Positions 1-6,214 of a stretch of DNA of 64,000 nt are shown one piece after another (within the stretch, counting starts at the first letter, position 1; each line of letters begins with the position of its first letter). A program made the position numbers and the translations under genes. Source of the DNA: Roseomonas haemaphysalidis. GTDB lineage: Bacteria > Pseudomonadota > Alphaproteobacteria > Acetobacterales > Acetobacteraceae. The DNA is taken from positions 372,001-436,000 of the forward strand of contig NZ_CP061177.1 in assembly GCF_017355405.1 (NCBI RefSeq), in the 5' to 3' direction. The notes beneath the pieces are model-generated. The model worked only from the letters and a program-made list of their open reading frames with translations. It was not told where the DNA came from and made no database searches.

Positions 1-288
1 GAGGTCCCGCCGGGACAGGTGCAGCCAGTAGAGCAGTTCCAGGCGTGCGCTCAGTTCCACACCGTCCAGGATCGCGGGTGCCCAGGGCGGGAACACCTCC
101 ACCCGGCAGATTGGCCCATCCAAGCGGCCCTGGCGGGGACATTGCAGCCGGTCCGTCCAGGGCGTGTGGATGCGGCCCACGAACACCAGACCAGCATCGA
201 TGCGGTCCGGCACAGCGACGGCCTGCTCGCCCGGCCTGATCTGATCCTTGCGCGTCATGTGTCGTGAAGGCTCCTCGGTTGCGGTCAT
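1..288 (-). CDS. trmO: TrmO-like tRNA methyltransferase (TsaA domain), 3' part outside window
   Basis: Reading the minus strand from an ATG at 288 gives MTATEEPSRH then MTRKDQIRPG, followed by a segment with VFVGRIHTPW, LDGPICRVEVFPPW and LDGVELSARLELLYWLH, which is the characteristic start of the TsaA/TrmO fold. TrmO proteins use S-adenosylmethionine to N6-methylate the t6A37 of tRNA. The ATG overlaps the stop of the upstream ABC ATPase as ATGA, so translational coupling is likely; an internal ATG at 258 is the alternative start. About 96 residues are visible and the C-terminal half lies beyond the window edge. The position at the end of a molybdate-type transport operon is seen directly; whether it has a metal-related role is unknown. 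Confidence 0.72.
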   Translation of the reverse strand, partial: MTATEEPSRHMTRKDQIRPGEQAVAVPDRIDAGLVFVGRIHTPWTDRLQCPRQGRLDGPICRVEVFPPWAPAILDGVELSARLELLYWLHLSRRDL

Positions 289-1112
289 GGGTCCGGCCGC
301 CGGCTGAGATAGCGCGCTGCCGAGGATGGCCCGCCAAAGTCCGGCACCGCCACATCGCGCCCCCGCTCCGTGCGAAGGACGTCGATCGGCAGACCATATG
401 CCTCCTTCAACAAAGCCGGGGCGATGATCTGCTCCACGGGACCCGCGACCGCCCGGGTGCGCCCCAGCAGCAGCACGTCGCCACCGCAGGCCAGGGCGTG
501 GCTGGGGTCGTGGCTGCTCATCCCGATGGCGAGGCCCTCCGACGCCAGGGCCCGGACCACGTCCAGCACCTGCCGTTGGTTGGCGAGGTCCAGGTGCGCC
601 ATGGGTTCGTCCAGCAGCCGCACCGGGCTGTCCTGGACCAGGGCGCGTGCCATGCGCACCATCTGCTGCTCGCCCCCGCTGAGCTCATGCATGGAGCGCG
701 CCGCGAAGTGGCCGATGCCGAGCCGGTGCAGCGCCCGCGCCGCCCGCCCGCGGTCGGCCTTGCCGGGGCGATGGAACAGCCCGAGATGCGCCGCGCGGCC
801 GGTCAGCACGATGTCGGCCACGGTGAAGGCAAATGTTTCCGCTTCGCTTTGCGCCATGAAGGCGATGCGCCGCGCCCGCTGTGCGTCGTTCAGACCGCGC
901 AGCGGCATCCCGGCGAAGGTCACCGTCCCGCGGGTGGGAAGAGCCAAGCCAGCGAGGCACCGCAGCAAGGTCGACTTGCCGACCCCGTTGGGGCCGAGAA
1001 TGATCAGCGGGTGACCGGGCCGCAGGGTCACGCTCAGTTCCTCGAACACCGGGCGCCGCGCGCCGGGATGCGCGAAGGCAAGGCCGTGCGTGGCCAGCGA
1101 CGCGGTGGTCAC
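285..1112 (-). CDS. ABC transporter ATP-binding protein, FecCD/MolC type
   Basis: This 275-residue protein is the cytoplasmic ATPase of a metal or oxyanion importer. It carries a Walker A motif GPNGVGKST near residue 37, the signature LSGGEQQ, a Walker B ending in LLDEP and the D-loop LDLA, followed by the switch His in SSHDPSH. The GTG start at 1112 overlaps the permease stop by four bases (GTGA), and its own stop overlaps trmO, so the three genes are read as one coupled unit. In family terms it groups with the ATPases that partner FecCD-fold permeases (vitamin B12, iron-siderophore, MolBC molybdate). The substrate is inferred to be molybdate or tungstate from the mop/modA genes and the Mo-boxes in the same operon, not from this protein. 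Confidence 0.85.
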   Translation of the reverse strand: MTTASLATHGLAFAHPGARRPVFEELSVTLRPGHPLIILGPNGVGKSTLLRCLAGLALPTRGTVTFAGMPLRGLNDAQRARRIAFMAQSEAETFAFTVADIVLTGRAAHLGLFHRPGKADRGRAARALHRLGIGHFAARSMHELSGGEQQMVRMARALVQDSPVRLLDEPMAHLDLANQRQVLDVVRALASEGLAIGMSSHDPSHALACGGDVLLLGRTRAVAGPVEQIIAPALLKEAYGLPIDVLRTERGRDVAVPDFGGPSSAARYLSRRPDP

Positions 1113-2149
1113 GACCACGCCTTCTCTCCTCGCAGCAGCATGACGGCGAAGACCGGTGCGCCCACCAGGGAAGTGACGATGCCCAGCGGGATCTCGGCGG
1201 AGGATAAGGAGCGAGCCAGCGTGTCCACCAGCAGCAGGAAGGTGCCACCCATCAGCAGGGTGGCGGGCAACAGCCGGTCGTGGTCGGCGCCCACCAGCAG
1301 GCGGCCGAGATGCGGCACTACCAGCCCCACCCAGCCCACCAGCCCGCAGACCGCCACGGCGCTGGAGGCCAGTGCCGTGGCCAGGCCAAGCTGGAGGGCG
1401 CGTTCCAGGCCCACGCGGACGCCCAGCGCGCTTGCGGCCTCGTCGCCCATGGCCAGGAGGTTCAATCGCCAGCGCAGCGCCAGCAGCAGGGCCAGCAACG
1501 GCGCGTTGATGGCCAGCAGGGTCCAGAAGGTCGGTGCCCGCACGCCGGACAGCGAGCCGAGCAGCCAGTACTCGATGACCGGCAGCTTGTTCTCGGGGTC
1601 CGCGCTGTATTTCAGCAGGCCGAGCAGCGCGGTGAACATTGAGCCGACGATGATGCCGGACAGCACCAGCACCAACGTGCGGTTGCCGCGGTAGGCACGC
1701 CCCAGGAGGCTGGTGCAGAACGTCGCCAGGGCGGCAAACCCGAAGGCCGAGACCTGCACCGCCAGTGCCCCGCCGTCCAACAGGATGGCCAGCGCCGCGC
1801 CAAATCCGGCACCCGCCGAGACACCCAGCACGAAGGGGCTGACCAGCGGGTTGCGGAACACGCCCTGACAGGCGGCACCGCCCGTGGCCAGGGACGCGCC
1901 CACCAGCATGGCAACCCCGATGCGCGGCAGCCGCACCTGCATCAAGGCGATCTCTGCCGTGCGGGGCCAGCCGGCCTCGATGGGCAGCACGTGAGACAGC
2001 AGGATTCGCAGTACGGTGCCGGGCGGCAGGCTGAAGCGCCCCAGCCCCAGCGAAACCAGCACCGCTGCGATTGCCAGCAATCCCAACCACAGCAGGTGCC
2101 GCTGCCCCCGCCGGGTCGGGGCGGCCGCGGGGGCCACATCGTCACGCAC
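1109..2149 (-). CDS. FecCD/MolB-type ABC importer permease
   Basis: The 346-residue product is an integral membrane protein of the FecCD family with about ten hydrophobic helices. Family features include the LPRIGVAMLVGASLATGG stretch, NPLVSPFVLGVSAGAGFGA, the WLLGSL segment and the GLVVPHLGRLL coupling-helix region. It translocates the ligand delivered by a periplasmic class III binding protein. The start is a GTG at 2149 lying eight bases inside the end of the upstream binding-protein gene, and the stop overlaps the ATPase start, both signs of one operon. Iron-chelate, B12 and molybdate (Haemophilus MolB2C2A2) transporters share this fold; molybdate or tungstate is favoured here only because of the gene neighbours and regulatory sites. 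Confidence 0.85.
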   Translation of the reverse strand: MRDDVAPAAAPTRRGQRHLLWLGLLAIAAVLVSLGLGRFSLPPGTVLRILLSHVLPIEAGWPRTAEIALMQVRLPRIGVAMLVGASLATGGAACQGVFRNPLVSPFVLGVSAGAGFGAALAILLDGGALAVQVSAFGFAALATFCTSLLGRAYRGNRTLVLVLSGIIVGSMFTALLGLLKYSADPENKLPVIEYWLLGSLSGVRAPTFWTLLAINAPLLALLLALRWRLNLLAMGDEAASALGVRVGLERALQLGLATALASSAVAVCGLVGWVGLVVPHLGRLLVGADHDRLLPATLLMGGTFLLLVDTLARSLSSAEIPLGIVTSLVGAPVFAVMLLRGEKAWS

Positions 2150-3212
2150 CGTCGTAAACCACGCCGTAGAAGCGCTGGTAGAAGTCCTCGGCGCGGGCCC
2201 GCAGGTCGATATCGTTGAACAGGTCGGGATGCAGGGTCTTGGCCATCCAGGTTTCCCCCAGCGCCAGGCTTTCCGGCACGGGATGGCCCCAGGGCTTGAC
2301 GTATTCAGGCGTCACCGTGATGCGGTTGCGGGCCACCGCCCGCACGGGTGCCCAGGCCGGGTCCTGGCGGATCTGGCCGGCCACCGCGGCATAGCGGTCC
2401 TGGACGATCACCGCCTCGGGGTTCCAGGCCAGCACCTGTTCCATGGTCACCTTGCCATAGCCCTGCATGGCACGCGCCACGTTCAGCCCGCCCGCCAGCC
2501 CCATGACGACGCCAGTATACTTGCCGCTGCCATAGGTGGTGAGGTCGGGGTTGGCCATGTACATGCTGGTGCGGCCTGTATCCGGGAGGTTCGCGGTGCG
2601 CTCCTCCACCAGGCGCCGCCCCGCCAGGGCGGCCCCGACCAGCCGTGCCGCCCGCTCCTGCCGTCCGGTGATCTCACCGAGCAGACGCACCGCCTCCACC
2701 AGCCCATCGGTATAGGCCTGCTTCTCGTTCTCCAGCACGGGGTTCAGCTTGCCGCGCTCGCTGGGCGGGCCGGTGAAGAAGGCCATCTGCGCCACTGGCA
2801 TGCCCGCAGCCTCGATGGCCTGCACCATCTGGGGTGGTGCGTAGTGGGTCAGGATCACCAATTCTGGTGACAGGGCCAGCAACTCCTCGACATTGGCGCT
2901 GGTCAGCGTGCCCGGCGTCGGCAACGCGGCGAAGCCCGGCGCCAAGCGGGCGAAGCTGGGGCCGAGCTGCTGCCGCCAGTCCCGCAGCACCCCCACCACT
3001 TGCCCGGTCGCGCCAAGCTGGGCCAGCACATCCATGCTGTGGTGCTGCAGCACCACCAGGCGCGTCACGCGCTCCGGCAGCGGCACACGGCGGCCGTTCT
3101 GGTCGACGATCTCGCGCGTCGCGGCCTGCGCGAAGCGTGGCCGCAGCAGCGTCGTGGAGGCAAGCGCCGGGAGCGCCAGCCCGGCGCGGAGCAGCAGACG
3201 GCGGGACATCAT
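2142..3212 (-). CDS. ABC transporter substrate-binding protein (class III, second copy)
   Basis: This 356-residue periplasmic binding protein starts with MMSRRLLLRAGLALPALAST, a Sec or Tat-type leader with twin Arg, and matures after an AQA site near residue 31. The mature part begins TREIVDQNGRRVPLPERVTR and contains NVEELLALSPELVI and QVLAWNPEAVIV, hallmarks of the BtuF/FecB/MolA fold with one long central helix. It would deliver the ligand to the FecCD permease whose GTG start overlaps its 3' end. A well-formed Mo-box lies 15 bases upstream of the start codon, so molybdate or tungstate is the likely ligand or co-regulator. A second ATG at 3209 is an equally possible start. Confidence 0.82.
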   Translation of the reverse strand: MMSRRLLLRAGLALPALASTTLLRPRFAQAATREIVDQNGRRVPLPERVTRLVVLQHHSMDVLAQLGATGQVVGVLRDWRQQLGPSFARLAPGFAALPTPGTLTSANVEELLALSPELVILTHYAPPQMVQAIEAAGMPVAQMAFFTGPPSERGKLNPVLENEKQAYTDGLVEAVRLLGEITGRQERAARLVGAALAGRRLVEERTANLPDTGRTSMYMANPDLTTYGSGKYTGVVMGLAGGLNVARAMQGYGKVTMEQVLAWNPEAVIVQDRYAAVAGQIRQDPAWAPVRAVARNRITVTPEYVKPWGHPVPESLALGETWMAKTLHPDLFNDIDLRARAEDFYQRFYGVVYDGA

Positions 3213-3227
3213 GGCAGCATCCTTGGG

Positions 3228-3251
3228 CGTTATGTTGACAGGCATATAACG
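3228..3251. promoter_or_regulatory. Mo-box-like operator (ModE-type)
   Basis: The 24-base site reads CGTTATGT, eight spacer bases (TGACAGGC), then ATATAACG. The outer arms are inverted repeats with one mismatch (CGTTATGT against CGTTATAT) and match the known CGTTATAT-N8-ATATAACG type of ModE binding site. It sits in the 76-base gap between the two class III binding-protein genes, just upstream of the second one on the minus strand, so it probably controls an internal promoter for the second binding protein, permease, ATPase and trmO. No modE gene is present in the window. Confidence 0.65.
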
Positions 3252-3288
3252 TCTGGCGCGCCTTGCCACGGCGGCAGACTGAAGGCGG

Positions 3289-4332
3289 TCAGGGCACCGC
3301 GCTGCGCAGCATGGCCGCAAGCTGCGCCTCGTCCGGCCGCCGGTGATAAAGCATGTCGGACAGCGCGCCGATCTGGTCGGCCAACCGGTCCCTCGGGCGG
3401 ATGCCGAACAGCACCGGCAACCAAGCCAGCCCCAGCAGGCGATTGACCGAAGGCGGGCTGTCGACCCAGCCATAGGGTAACACGGGCGCGACCGCGACAT
3501 GCCCCGCCCGCACGGCGCGCAACGTGCCCCACAAGGGGTGACCTGGCATCGCGGCGGCCAGTCCCGCCTCCGGCGTGATGATCCAGTCCGGATCCCACAG
3601 CACCACCTGTTCGGCCGAGACCTGGGCCAGCCCACCGCGGCCCGCCTGCGTGGCAGCGACGTTCTCCGCACCGCAGAACTCGATGATCTCAGTGTTGATC
3701 GAACCCGCGACCCCGGTTTCCAGCCCCTGGGGTCCGCGAGCGTAGTAGACCCTCGGGCGGCCCCGCGCGGCCAGTTCTGCCGCAGCCTCGCGCGCGTCGT
3801 TCAGCCGATGGGCGGCGGCGGCGGCCAGGGGTGCGGCGGCGGCCTCGCGGCCCAGGATCTCGCCCAGCAGGCGGAAGGTGTCCGGGATCTTCGCCAGCGT
3901 TCCGTCCAGCAGCAGCGACGGAATGCCGGTCTGCGCTTGCAGGCGATCGGCCAGTGCCGCGTAGGACGGCGTGACGGACCCGTAGTCCAGGATCATGTCG
4001 GCGCGGGCGGCAACCACGGCCTCGACGCTGGCGGTGTCGGCGGCACTGCCGGTCAGGCGGCCGGTTTCCGGCAGGGCGGCGGCCTCGGGCGGCAGGAAGG
4101 CCCGTTCGGGGCCGCGCGGCGCCCGCACCCAACCCGCCAGAAGGTCCGGAGCCAAGCTCCAGACTGGCAGGGCGGCGGGCGGGCCGGCGGCGAAGACCCG
4201 GGTCACCCGCTGCGGCAGGGTGGCGAGGCGCCCCGCCGCGTCCCGCACCGGGCGAGTGCCCTGGGCCCGAGCGGCCAGGGGCCAAGCGGCCATCGCCCCC
4301 AACAGCGCGCGGCGGCCAGGGGCGGCGGGCAT
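3289..4332 (-). CDS. ABC transporter substrate-binding protein (class III, first copy)
   Basis: The 347-residue product has a short leader (MPAAPGRRALLGAMAAWPLA, cleavage after ARA) followed by RPVRDAAGRLATLPQRVTRV, the usual beginning of a BtuF/FecB-type periplasmic binding protein. Other family stretches are SVEAVVAARADMILDYG and AEQVVLWDPDWIITPE. The ATG at 4332 shares its A with the TGA stop of mop (TGATG), so the two are co-translated. It is only distantly similar to the other class III binding protein downstream, so the operon encodes two different candidate receptors for one permease. A role in molybdate or tungstate capture is inferred from context. Its C-terminal half retains GYWD-like GWVDSPPSVNRLLGL, often seen in metal-oxyanion members. 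Confidence 0.8.
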   Translation of the reverse strand: MPAAPGRRALLGAMAAWPLAARAQGTRPVRDAAGRLATLPQRVTRVFAAGPPAALPVWSLAPDLLAGWVRAPRGPERAFLPPEAAALPETGRLTGSAADTASVEAVVAARADMILDYGSVTPSYAALADRLQAQTGIPSLLLDGTLAKIPDTFRLLGEILGREAAAAPLAAAAAHRLNDAREAAAELAARGRPRVYYARGPQGLETGVAGSINTEIIEFCGAENVAATQAGRGGLAQVSAEQVVLWDPDWIITPEAGLAAAMPGHPLWGTLRAVRAGHVAVAPVLPYGWVDSPPSVNRLLGLAWLPVLFGIRPRDRLADQIGALSDMLYHRRPDEAQLAAMLRSAVP

Positions 4333-4541
4333 CAGGCCTTGCCGACGATGACGTCAGACGCCTTGACGATCGCCGAAGCCTCGTCGCCGACTTTGAGCTC
4401 CAGTGCATCGACGGCTTCGTTGGTGATGGAAGCCGTGATCACCGACCCGCCGGGCAGGGTGATCTTCACGCGGGCGGTCGTCTGCCCCTTGGTGACTTCG
4501 CTGACAGTGCCGGACAGCACATTGCGAGCGGACAGCTTCAT
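4332..4541 (-). CDS. mop: Mop-type molybdopterin/molybdate-binding protein
   Basis: A 69-residue single Mop domain: MKLSARNVLSGTVSEVTKG, then VKITLPGGSVITASITNEAV, ending LKVGDEASAIVKASDVIVG. Mop domains bind molybdate or tungstate and, as stand-alone cytoplasmic molbindins, assemble into hexamers that store the oxyanion. The ATG at 4541 is preceded by AAAGGAG at a good distance, so the longer open frame upstream is not used. Its stop overlaps the start of the first class III binding protein by one base. This gene is the strongest direct evidence that the whole operon handles molybdate or tungstate. Confidence 0.88.
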   Translation of the reverse strand: MKLSARNVLSGTVSEVTKGQTTARVKITLPGGSVITASITNEAVDALELKVGDEASAIVKASDVIVGKA

Positions 4542-4611
4542 GATGAAATCTCCTTTGTTTGACGGAAGGTCTGCCCGGATCGGCAAGCCCACACAAGCGG
4601 TTCGGCAGGCA

Positions 4612-5376
4612 TCATCCGCGCCGCACGCTCCTGGCTTCCGTAACGGCGACGAACCCGTGCCGGACCAGGATGTCCTGGCCTTCCGGCGAAAGGATGAAGC
4701 AGAACAGCCGCACTGCCCCGGGATGGTCCGAAAGCAAAGCCAGGGCGTAGTCGGCACCCACTGCCAGGGCAGGCGGCAGGTCCACCACCTGGGTGCCCGG
4801 GCATTCCCGCAGAACCGCTGCGGCAGAGGTGCGATAGCTCAGGAAGATGTCGGCACGGCCTTCCGCCATGTGCCAGCCGACGTAGTGGCGTCCTGCCGGA
4901 GCGGGCACCGTGTCCCGCCCGCCGACCAGCTTCAACGCCTTGGCCTCGAGCATCGCGCGCGCACCGGGGCGGATGGCCTCGGCACGCGCGAAGAGCTCCC
5001 AGGCATAGTCCCCGGAAGGACCCGCCCCGGGGGTCGAGGTGCCGAGCCGGATGGCGGGGTCCAGCATGTGGCCGAGCAGGCTGTCCGACGTCGCCGCCAA
5101 CCCTGGACGAACCAGGGCGCAGAGGGTGTTGCGCGCGAAGATGACAGGCGGTGCCGATCGTCCAGCCTCCGCCAGCGCCCGCACATGTTGCAAGCTGGCG
5201 GAAGCGAAGAGGTCGGCGGACTCGCCGCCCTCGATGCGCTCGCGCAGCAGCCCGGCTGGTCCGAAGGCGGCCTCGACGACGGCGCCGCCACCGGCATTGA
5301 AAGCCGCCATCAGGTCATGGGCCGCGGTGGACAGACTGCCGGCAGACAGCAACCGGATAGGAGCGACCTTCGCCAC
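4612..5376 (-). CDS. ModA-like substrate-binding protein lacking a signal peptide
   Basis: The 254-residue protein begins directly with a mature binding-protein sequence (GTG start, MAKVAPIRLLSAGSLSTAAH) and contains the ModA-type landmarks GPAGLLRERIEGGESADLFASAS, NTLCALVRPG, LGTSTPGAGPSGDYAWELF and ADIFLSYRT. ModA/WtpA family proteins bind molybdate or tungstate in the periplasm. No hydrophobic leader is encoded: the reading frame starts only 14 bases after the modA stop, so an earlier start would run back into modA. It therefore appears cytoplasmic unless exported by another route. Downstream come 70 non-coding bases and then mop. No ModB/ModC permease or ATPase for it exists nearby. A storage or sensing role is possible but unproven. 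Confidence 0.75.
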   Translation of the reverse strand: MAKVAPIRLLSAGSLSTAAHDLMAAFNAGGGAVVEAAFGPAGLLRERIEGGESADLFASASLQHVRALAEAGRSAPPVIFARNTLCALVRPGLAATSDSLLGHMLDPAIRLGTSTPGAGPSGDYAWELFARAEAIRPGARAMLEAKALKLVGGRDTVPAPAGRHYVGWHMAEGRADIFLSYRTSAAAVLRECPGTQVVDLPPALAVGADYALALLSDHPGAVRLFCFILSPEGQDILVRHGFVAVTEARSVRRG

Positions 5377-5390
5377 GAGCGCGCCTGCTT

Positions 5391-6179
5391 CTACTGCGCG
5401 CGCAGGCCAAAGCCGAAGCGGCGGTAGGTTTCCGCCGCCTCGTTGCCGGTGGCAAAAGCGAAGAACGCGCGGGCTTCCCTGTTGTCCGCCGCGCGGCGGG
5501 CCAGGGCAAAGGGATAGGTCACTGCGGGATGGCCCTCGGCCGGGAAGGTGCCGATCACCTTGACGCCACGGGACGCCGCCGCATCGGTGGCATAAACGAT
5601 GCCGAGCGGCGCCTCGCCCCGCTCCACGAGCAGGAGAGCAGAGCGGACATTATCGGCCCGCGCCAGACGGGGTGAGACGCGGTCCCACTGCCCCATCCAG
5701 GTCAGCGCCGCCTGCGCGTACTTGCCGACCGGCACGTTGGACGGATCCCCGGTGGCAATACGCCTGTCGGCGCCGGCGAGAGCCAGCAAATCGGTGCCGC
5801 GTCCCAGGGTCACTGGCGGCTGACGGGAATCGGCGGGTGCGATCAGCACGAGGCTGTTGCTCAAAGGGCTGATCCGGGTGTCGTTGACGATCAGGTCGCG
5901 CTGCTCGACGTAGTCCATCCAGGGCTCGTCGGCAGAAGCGAAGATGTCGGCGGGCGCGCCCTGCTCCATCTGGCGAGCCAGGGCGGAGGACGCGGCGAAG
6001 GAGAAACGCGGCACCGGGTGGCCCTTGGCGCGCCATGCCTCGCCCAAGGCCTTCATGGCGTCAGTCAGGCTGGCGGCGGCGAAGACCACAGGCCCCTGCG
6101 CATCCTGCGCCCGGGCCGGGCCAAGAGCCGCCAGAAGGGCTGCACAAAGGGTCAGGGCGGCGAGATGGCGGCGATACAT
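5391..6179 (-). CDS. modA: Molybdate ABC transporter substrate-binding protein ModA
   Basis: The 262-residue precursor has a clear Sec signal peptide (MYRRHLAALTLCAALLAALG, cleavage after ARA) and a mature ModA domain: VVFAAASLTDAMKALGEAW, FSFAASSALARQMEQGAPADIFASADEPWMD, then GDPSNVPVGKYAQAAL and GEAPLGIVYATDA. These are the usual molybdate-binding strands of ModA, which hands oxyanion to ModBC. The start is the ATG at 6179, chosen because it opens the signal peptide and lies 11 bases from a Mo-box-like palindrome. No modB or modC follows; the only permease in the operon is of the unrelated FecCD class. Confidence 0.88.
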   Translation of the reverse strand: MYRRHLAALTLCAALLAALGPARAQDAQGPVVFAAASLTDAMKALGEAWRAKGHPVPRFSFAASSALARQMEQGAPADIFASADEPWMDYVEQRDLIVNDTRISPLSNSLVLIAPADSRQPPVTLGRGTDLLALAGADRRIATGDPSNVPVGKYAQAALTWMGQWDRVSPRLARADNVRSALLLVERGEAPLGIVYATDAAASRGVKVIGTFPAEGHPAVTYPFALARRAADNREARAFFAFATGNEAAETYRRFGFGLRAQ

Positions 6180-6190
6180 AGGACCTGCTC

Positions 6191-6214
6191 CGTTATATTC
6201 GCACGGATATATTG
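6191..6214. promoter_or_regulatory. Mo-box-like operator upstream of modA
   Basis: The site reads CGTTATAT, spacer TCGCACGG, then ATATATTG. The left arm equals the ideal ModE half-site and the right arm matches five of eight positions of ATATAACG. It is placed 11-35 bases before the modA start codon, where a bound repressor would block transcription of the whole operon. It parallels the better-conserved site at 3228-3251. Confidence 0.5.

Follow-up and report, generated by a model that had tools for sequence, protein, structure and literature searches.

A putative molybdenum acquisition island around MolABC in Roseomonas haemaphysalidis, with a ModA-fold protein lacking an export signal

Described molybdate importers and the Roseomonas locus

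The substrate-binding proteins (SBPs) of ATP-binding cassette (ABC) importers decide which nutrient is captured outside the membrane. Here we describe a gene cluster at the left end of a 64,000-nucleotide stretch of the Roseomonas haemaphysalidis genome (contig NZ_CP061177.1, positions 372,001 to 436,000; hereafter the window), whose closest described relative is the MolABC system of Haemophilus influenzae (HI1470-1472). The two share homologues of MolA, a FecCD-type permease and an ATPase, and HI1470-1472 adjoin a gene annotated as ModA, HI1469 (PMC4031551, PMC3928620). H. influenzae MolBC-A is a low-affinity molybdate importer that operates in parallel to ModBC-A, and the factor behind molybdate repression of molB has been termed unknown (Rice et al. 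2014, PMC4031551). One paper lists HI1469 as 'modA' beside molABC (PMC3928620) and another as a molybdenum substrate-binding protein (PMC3877243), both in passages that are silent on its location or role; among the matches listed from the open-licence literature, none was a study of what HI1469 does or of a ModA without a signal peptide. The in vivo H. influenzae mol deletion, of five genes, took out HI1469 along with molABC (PMC4031551). In a Pasteurella relative (L132), whose copy stands in for HI1469, the order is molA-molB-molC-modA2, and modA2 is signal-less with an alanine in its binding pocket. Unlike the H. influenzae cluster, the Roseomonas cluster adds an apparently exported ModA, mop, a putative second class III receptor, TrmO-like and ModE-like genes, and Mo-boxes; conversely, the HI1473-1475 genes (modD-salX-cysU) listed with the H. 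influenzae cluster were not seen in it.

Other described systems share parts of this arrangement. With the E. coli-type ModABC/ModE system the locus has in common ModA1, the architecture of the Mo-boxes (8-bp arms separated by N8), a Mop-type domain and a ModE-like helix-turn-helix (HTH) protein; it differs in that modA and modBC lie 1.45 Mb apart and that both ModE-like proteins read match only the HTH domain, without TOBE. Rhodobacter capsulatus likewise has parallel molybdenum transporters and molybdate-responsive repressors acting at Mo-boxes (Mop/Mor/Mod), although its second system, MorABC, is ModABC-like rather than FecCD-type, and the passages on it describe no signal-less ModA (PMC6925177).

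The cluster comprises seven genes, all on the minus strand (Table 1). The preliminary description of this DNA had listed modA, a second ModA-like gene, mop, two class III binding proteins, a FecCD permease and an ATPase, with palindromes at 3228 and 6191, and profile searches and a pattern scan confirmed every one; its reading of the locus as a molybdate/tungstate-type system built on a FecCD permease (MolABC) and accompanied by ModA genes, mop and ModE-type sites is also supported. We consider the locus likely to be a molybdenum-controlled island around MolABC, in which ModA1 feeds a remote ModBC, ModA2 is cytosolic and SBP-a is a second class III receptor. It would be a molybdenum (or tungsten) acquisition island of Roseomonas-type Acetobacteraceae, organized as two tandem units on one strand. 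At low cellular molybdate, a ModE-type regulator should leave its boxes, and both units should be made. MolA would then hand molybdate to MolBC, while exported ModA1 would most likely supply the ordinary ModBC. ModA2, for its part, would most likely bind incoming molybdate on the inner side of the membrane beside Mop, whether as an acceptor, a buffer or a sensor limiting uptake.

SBP-b matches H. influenzae MolA (HI_1472; 3psa/3psh) over nearly its full length (residues 33-353; phmmer E 3.3e-98), the next solved chain following at E 8.9e-24. Because of this match, SBP-b, together with the FecCD permease and ATPase encoded directly downstream, is assigned as a MolABC importer on sequence grounds. 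In a tree of FecCD permeases, MolB falls nearest to two MolA-linked permeases (L088 and L089). No TOBE match was found with Pfam behind the ABC domain of MolC. MolA is sporadic: a family sample of 120 genomes gave four with it (E 1e-20; one of them weak), and a phylum sample of 398 gave 12 (E 1e-60), the other 11 all sharing one family code. One contig labelled Mycobacterium sp. KBS0706 (L101) has a mol cluster closely similar to the Inquilinus one, and the contig's label may be wrong.

The signal-less ModA-fold protein and its altered pocket

ModA2 has at most 10 residues ahead of its first conserved motif. No signal peptide was found, the frame upstream of the GTG codon containing neither a further start nor a hydrophobic stretch. 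The AlphaFold2 model has a predicted local distance difference test (pLDDT) score of 95 and places strand 1 already at residue 6, and ModA structures head the matches in the PDB. Against TIGR01256 the protein scores 43.4 bits, under the cut-off of 62.5, and against NF002917 it scores 268.6, over the cut-off of 264, which assigns it to the PRK03537-type group, named 'molybdate ABC transporter substrate-binding protein' (NCBIfam NF002915-NF002920). The name of that group implies a periplasmic receptor, whereas the molA-linked members read have no pocket Ser. Since it has no export signal, ModA2 is unlikely to be a periplasmic receptor, despite its ModA fold.

Among the residues with which ModA holds molybdate is a Ser or Thr from the loop that follows strand 2 (PMC11734730, PMC9171197): the backbone of S66 contacts the oxyanion in the Acinetobacter baumannii protein (PMC11734730), and the hydroxyl of Thr60 does so in that of Pseudomonas aeruginosa (PMC9171197). 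ModA2 has an Ala in this β2 loop. We take it to occupy the S66/Thr60 position, going by the alignment to modA1 and the E. coli numbering.

The same substitution recurs beside molA in other bacteria. In a sample of 33 MolA loci that was collected without reference to modA2, an intact modA2 homologue lies within 6 kb of molA in 27, and one further copy is frameshifted. The sample leaves out a MolA homologue of 31% identity (L068, genome G155; E 1.4e-21), whose 4-kb stretch holds no modA2, and four stretches (L056, L062, L066 and L067) that belong to contigs present in the sample as L088, L098 and L093. The pocket residue was read in 31 intact molA-linked modA2 genes, four of them from plasmid records, and is Ala in 30 and Val in one. 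It is Ser in all 32 signal-bearing homologues aligned; among the 120 homologues nearest to ModA2, 116 have Ser, and the remaining four (P0001-P0004), with Ala, make up the window's own clade. Ala is also found in the 120 nearest homologues of an enterobacteria-like protein (L130), although their gene contexts were not checked one by one. Throughout, the first-loop Ser and the pocket Tyr stay constant, with a single Arg for Ser among the L130 homologues, so ModA2 has probably kept the ability to bind an oxyanion, if perhaps less tightly.

Loss of the signal peptide proved too loose as a mark of the MolA-linked group. There is no room for such a peptide in 23 of the 30 molA-linked modA2 genes read for it, none of which has the pocket Ser, and homologues without a signal yet with the pocket Ser also exist; the pocket residue is the better mark. 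In the tree, the window's ModA2 clade sits inside a signal-bearing group, apart from the other molA-linked copies. The tree thereby suggests two independent origins of signal-less, Ala-pocket ModA2 without establishing them: a single clade is not rejected (approximately unbiased test, p-AU 0.394), and convergence is not claimed.

These observations point to ModA2 as a cytosolic companion of MolABC, which is where the main remaining interest of the locus lies. A broader proposal, which we put forward tentatively and hold to be possible rather than probable, is that proteobacterial MolABC has an overlooked fourth part: a signal-less ModA-fold protein with a Ser/Thr-to-Ala pocket that would serve as a cytosolic acceptor, buffer, sensor or trans-inhibitor, replacing the TOBE domain that MolC lacks, and that might be the 'unknown factor' coupling cytosolic molybdate to mol expression. 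If so, a conserved protein that stays inside the cell, is tied to one importer type and is altered in its pocket in both alpha- and gammaproteobacteria would give MolABC a cytosolic partner, and an importer-type binding protein would be at work on the side of the membrane opposite to the usual one. Because HI1469 was removed in the same deletion as molABC, part of the mol-deletion phenotype from which MolBC-A was assigned its in vivo role could be due to HI1469.

ModA1, the remote ModBC and the Mo-boxes

The claim that there is no ModBC holds at the locus and fails for the genome, which carries modB (C1:1831532-1832158; 204 bits, cut-off 182.6) adjoining modC (405 bits, cut-off 285) and followed by a ModE-like HTH gene, 1.45 Mb from the island. 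No modA was found adjoining this pair; the gene upstream of modB, which looks like a 2-hydroxyacid dehydrogenase by eye, stops 65 nt short of it. All 16 further genomes of the genus that were compared, one of them 71% complete, have modA immediately before modB in the same orientation. ModA1 has a hydrophobic N-terminus ahead of its domain that looks like a signal peptide by eye, belongs to the ModA family without modB and modC in its own operon, and is the genome's sole modA product over the family cut-off (TIGR01256, genome-wide). It is up to 82% identical to the congeners' ModA proteins encoded before modB and branches within the modA tree of the genus beside G002 and G013, with support (94/93) slightly under the mark for strong support, while the modB and modC trees leave the placement of this genome (G000) unresolved. 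ModBC lacks a modA of its own, and modA1 alone passes the cut-off and groups with the modA genes of the genus, so modA1 most likely serves ModBC in trans. The best reading is that modA1 replaced a lost native modA as the receptor of the native ModBC, or is that modA relocated. Such a split pair would offer a natural test of receptor sharing between loci.

G+C content at third codon positions (GC3) is 0.79-0.89 in the island genes and 0.92-0.94 in modB, modC and the modBC-linked modE; for modA1 it is 0.82 against 0.93-0.94 for modC and modB. These low values fit acquisition of the island, modA1 included, a point tempered by the congeners' own modA genes, which span 0.80-0.97. In one congener (G008), a strongly diverged modA2 copy without the usual pocket motif lies between modC and modE of a full modABC operon (L063:10046-10744).

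The Mo-box pattern CGTTATAT-N8-ATATAACG was scanned genome-wide with up to three mismatches, with the reversed pattern as control; the CGCTATAT form was scanned in the fetched loci only. The arm CGTTATAT occurs four times in 4.9 Mb, two of these in the cluster. The full palindrome occurs at four places, against two for the reversed control, so a lone three-mismatch match is near chance; both boxes in the window score better. Three of the four palindromes sit within 10.5 kb: the two window boxes and a third at C1:367753, left of the window, with three mismatches, or one if C or T is permitted at base 3. This third box ends 4 nt upstream of the likely ATG of a DUF2325 gene, beyond which lies a molybdopterin oxidoreductase gene. 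The fourth, at C1:1601777, was discarded, as it overlaps a TATGTTCGAACATA operator-like palindrome before a GntR-like gene (family assigned by eye). Among the congeners, a box upstream of modA is present, under the relaxed pattern (C or T at base 3), in five of 16 at up to two mismatches, six at up to three and ten at up to four, and was not found at that last threshold in the other six; upstream of molA, a congener has a box in the matching position (L056:2066-2089). The genome-wide counts, the reversed control and the boxes at matching places in relatives rule out a chance origin of the palindromes.

The three credible sites all fall within a single island of 10.5 kb, which suggests two tandem transcription units, [modA1-modA2-mop-SBPa] and [SBPb-fecCD-atp-trmO-modE], each headed by a Mo-box. 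The gaps between genes are 14 nt (modA1-modA2), 70 nt (modA2-mop) and 76 nt (SBP-a to SBP-b); the remaining neighbours in the cluster overlap by a few bases, the start of SBP-a overlapping the stop of mop. The only two ModE-like proteins read in the genome, that of the island and the modBC-linked one (L026:8055-8408), match the HTH domain PF00126 and no TOBE, so molybdate may be sensed by a separate protein, for instance Mop, which has the single TOBE domain and length (about 70 residues) of a Mop molbindin, or ModA2. As congeners without modA2 have similar ModE-like genes, ModA2 is not a general answer to the missing TOBE sensor.

Alternative readings and neighbouring genes

The preliminary description had proposed that ModA-type and class III receptors together serve the single FecCD permease, or else that the ModA proteins have other roles. 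Four binding-protein genes do cluster with one permease and one ATPase, as a shared channel would predict, but a canonical ModBC without its own modA is present in the genome, ModA2 has no signal peptide, and the permease is closest to those partnered with MolA. We therefore regard a shared channel as very improbable, and the evidence favours the second branch. The apparent excess of four receptors for one channel mostly dissolves: MolA is the receptor expected for MolBC, ModA1 would serve the distant ModBC, ModA2 is probably no receptor, and SBP-a is left over as a possible second one. The N-terminus of SBP-a reads as an export signal by eye, and its type also occurs in other molybdenum clusters; a ligand could not be taken from its fold, the best structural match (4pag) naming none in its title. 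SBP-a is probably a second class III receptor, and its ligand may be of the molybdenum or tungsten type. Those of its homologues that bear a specific source name are mostly called 'iron complex transport system substrate-binding protein', and FecCD permeases are mostly of the iron-complex, haem or B12 kind, so it is conceivable that the system imports such a compound and stands beside molybdenum genes by accident. Set against this are the match of SBP-b to MolA, alongside weak ones to haem or B12 receptors, the Mo-box directly before SBP-b, and the mop, modA and modE-like genes in the same cluster, which together leave an iron-siderophore, haem or B12 importer a negligible prospect.

More weight attaches to the view of ModA2 as a relic, decaying or moonlighting: a receptor once, which lost its signal peptide and has no specific cytosolic job. 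The position of its clade inside a signal-bearing group means that the signal may have gone recently, the pocket Ser is lost, and a diverged copy sits in the congener's modABC operon at L063. Against a relic stand an intact frame and a confidently modelled fold, an invariant or nearly invariant first-loop Ser and pocket Tyr, and Ser-to-Ala homologues retained beside molA in alpha- and gammaproteobacteria, and we judge it unlikely. The cytosolic role, read as that of a simple acceptor, faces a difficulty of its own. A two-gene unit of molA and modA2 without nearby molBC occurs in six loci (L122, L124, L125, L127, L130 and L136), the genes overlapping in L122, L127, L130 and L136, and five enterobacteria-like genomes keep the pair without a MolB-like permease: none was found elsewhere in the five searched (L136's genome was not among them). 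Their best FecCD proteins reach 38-45% identity and at most 183 bits, compared with 384-621 bits in four genomes with molB beside molA, which rules out a MolB located elsewhere. Either another permease steps in, or MolA and ModA2 share a task independent of MolBC. As for ModA1, it might act alone or with MolBC while ModBC stands idle. No Mo-box (up to four mismatches) was found in 19 kb around modBC, and the composition of modA1 is island-like, within the range of congeners' modA genes; yet modB and modC are intact and over their family cut-offs, and modA1 closely resembles ModA proteins encoded before modB, so we hold an idle ModBC to be quite improbable. A modBC pair elsewhere, co-regulated with this modA, had been named as evidence against the two-receptor scheme: the pair exists, but no Mo-box that would link its regulation to that of modA1 was found there. 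Table 1 collects the features of the island and its flank.

Table 1. Features of the island and its left flank (window positions unless prefixed with a locus name)
Feature	Coordinates	Strand	Evidence and remarks
modA1	5391-6179	-	TIGR01256 180.6 bits (cut-off 62.5)
modA2	4612-5376	-	ModA-fold protein, GTG start
mop	4332-4541	-	TIGR00638 74.6 bits (cut-off 55); stand-alone molbindin, TOBE domain
SBP-a	3289-4332	-	PF01497; second class III binding protein
SBP-b (MolA)	2142-3212	-	PF01497; class III receptor, molybdate/tungstate type
MolB, FecCD-type permease	1109-2149	-	PF01032, E 1.1e-77
MolC, ATPase	285-1112	-	PF00005, E 5.2e-30
TrmO-like (TsaA) gene, start part	1-288; whole gene L025:11755-12288	-	PF01980 93 bits (whole gene)
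ModE-like HTH-only gene	L025:11304-11645, left of window		PF00126 39.8 bits (whole gene)
Molybdopterin oxidoreductase	L025:9212-11287		PF00384; downstream of DUF2325 gene, convergent with island's end
DUF2325 gene	L025:7753-9043 (window -4247 to -2957)		behind third Mo-box
Mo-box 1	6191-6214		CGTTATAT-TCGCACGG-ATATATTG; 2 mismatches; 11 nt upstream of modA1
Mo-box 2	3228-3251		CGTTATGT-TGACAGGC-ATATAACG; 1 mismatch; 15 nt upstream of molA (SBP-b), inside the 76-nt gap

The cluster extends beyond the left edge of the window, where the TrmO-like gene overlaps the stop of the ATPase gene and is followed, after 109 nt, by the ModE-like HTH protein of 113 residues; the DUF2325 and molybdopterin oxidoreductase genes lie beyond, as a pair convergent with the island. 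DUF2325 recurs beside molybdenum clusters in four other loci (L056:5840-7135, L060:195-755, L061:13490-13873 and L106:4182-5363). A Mo-box-like palindrome stands near its start in L025, L056 (three mismatches), L060 (perfect) and L106 (exact start uncertain), and was not found in L061, where just a piece of the gene matched; the perfect box of L060 is shared with a divergent modE-like gene. The terms DUF2325 and molyb- were not found together in any open-licence paper. That DUF2325 and TrmO-like genes turn up repeatedly with Mo-boxes would give these genes a testable link to molybdenum. The TrmO-like (TsaA) gene itself recurs in molybdenum clusters at three loci from two other genomes (L061:11940-12413, L104:9416-9538 and L106:7651-8136).

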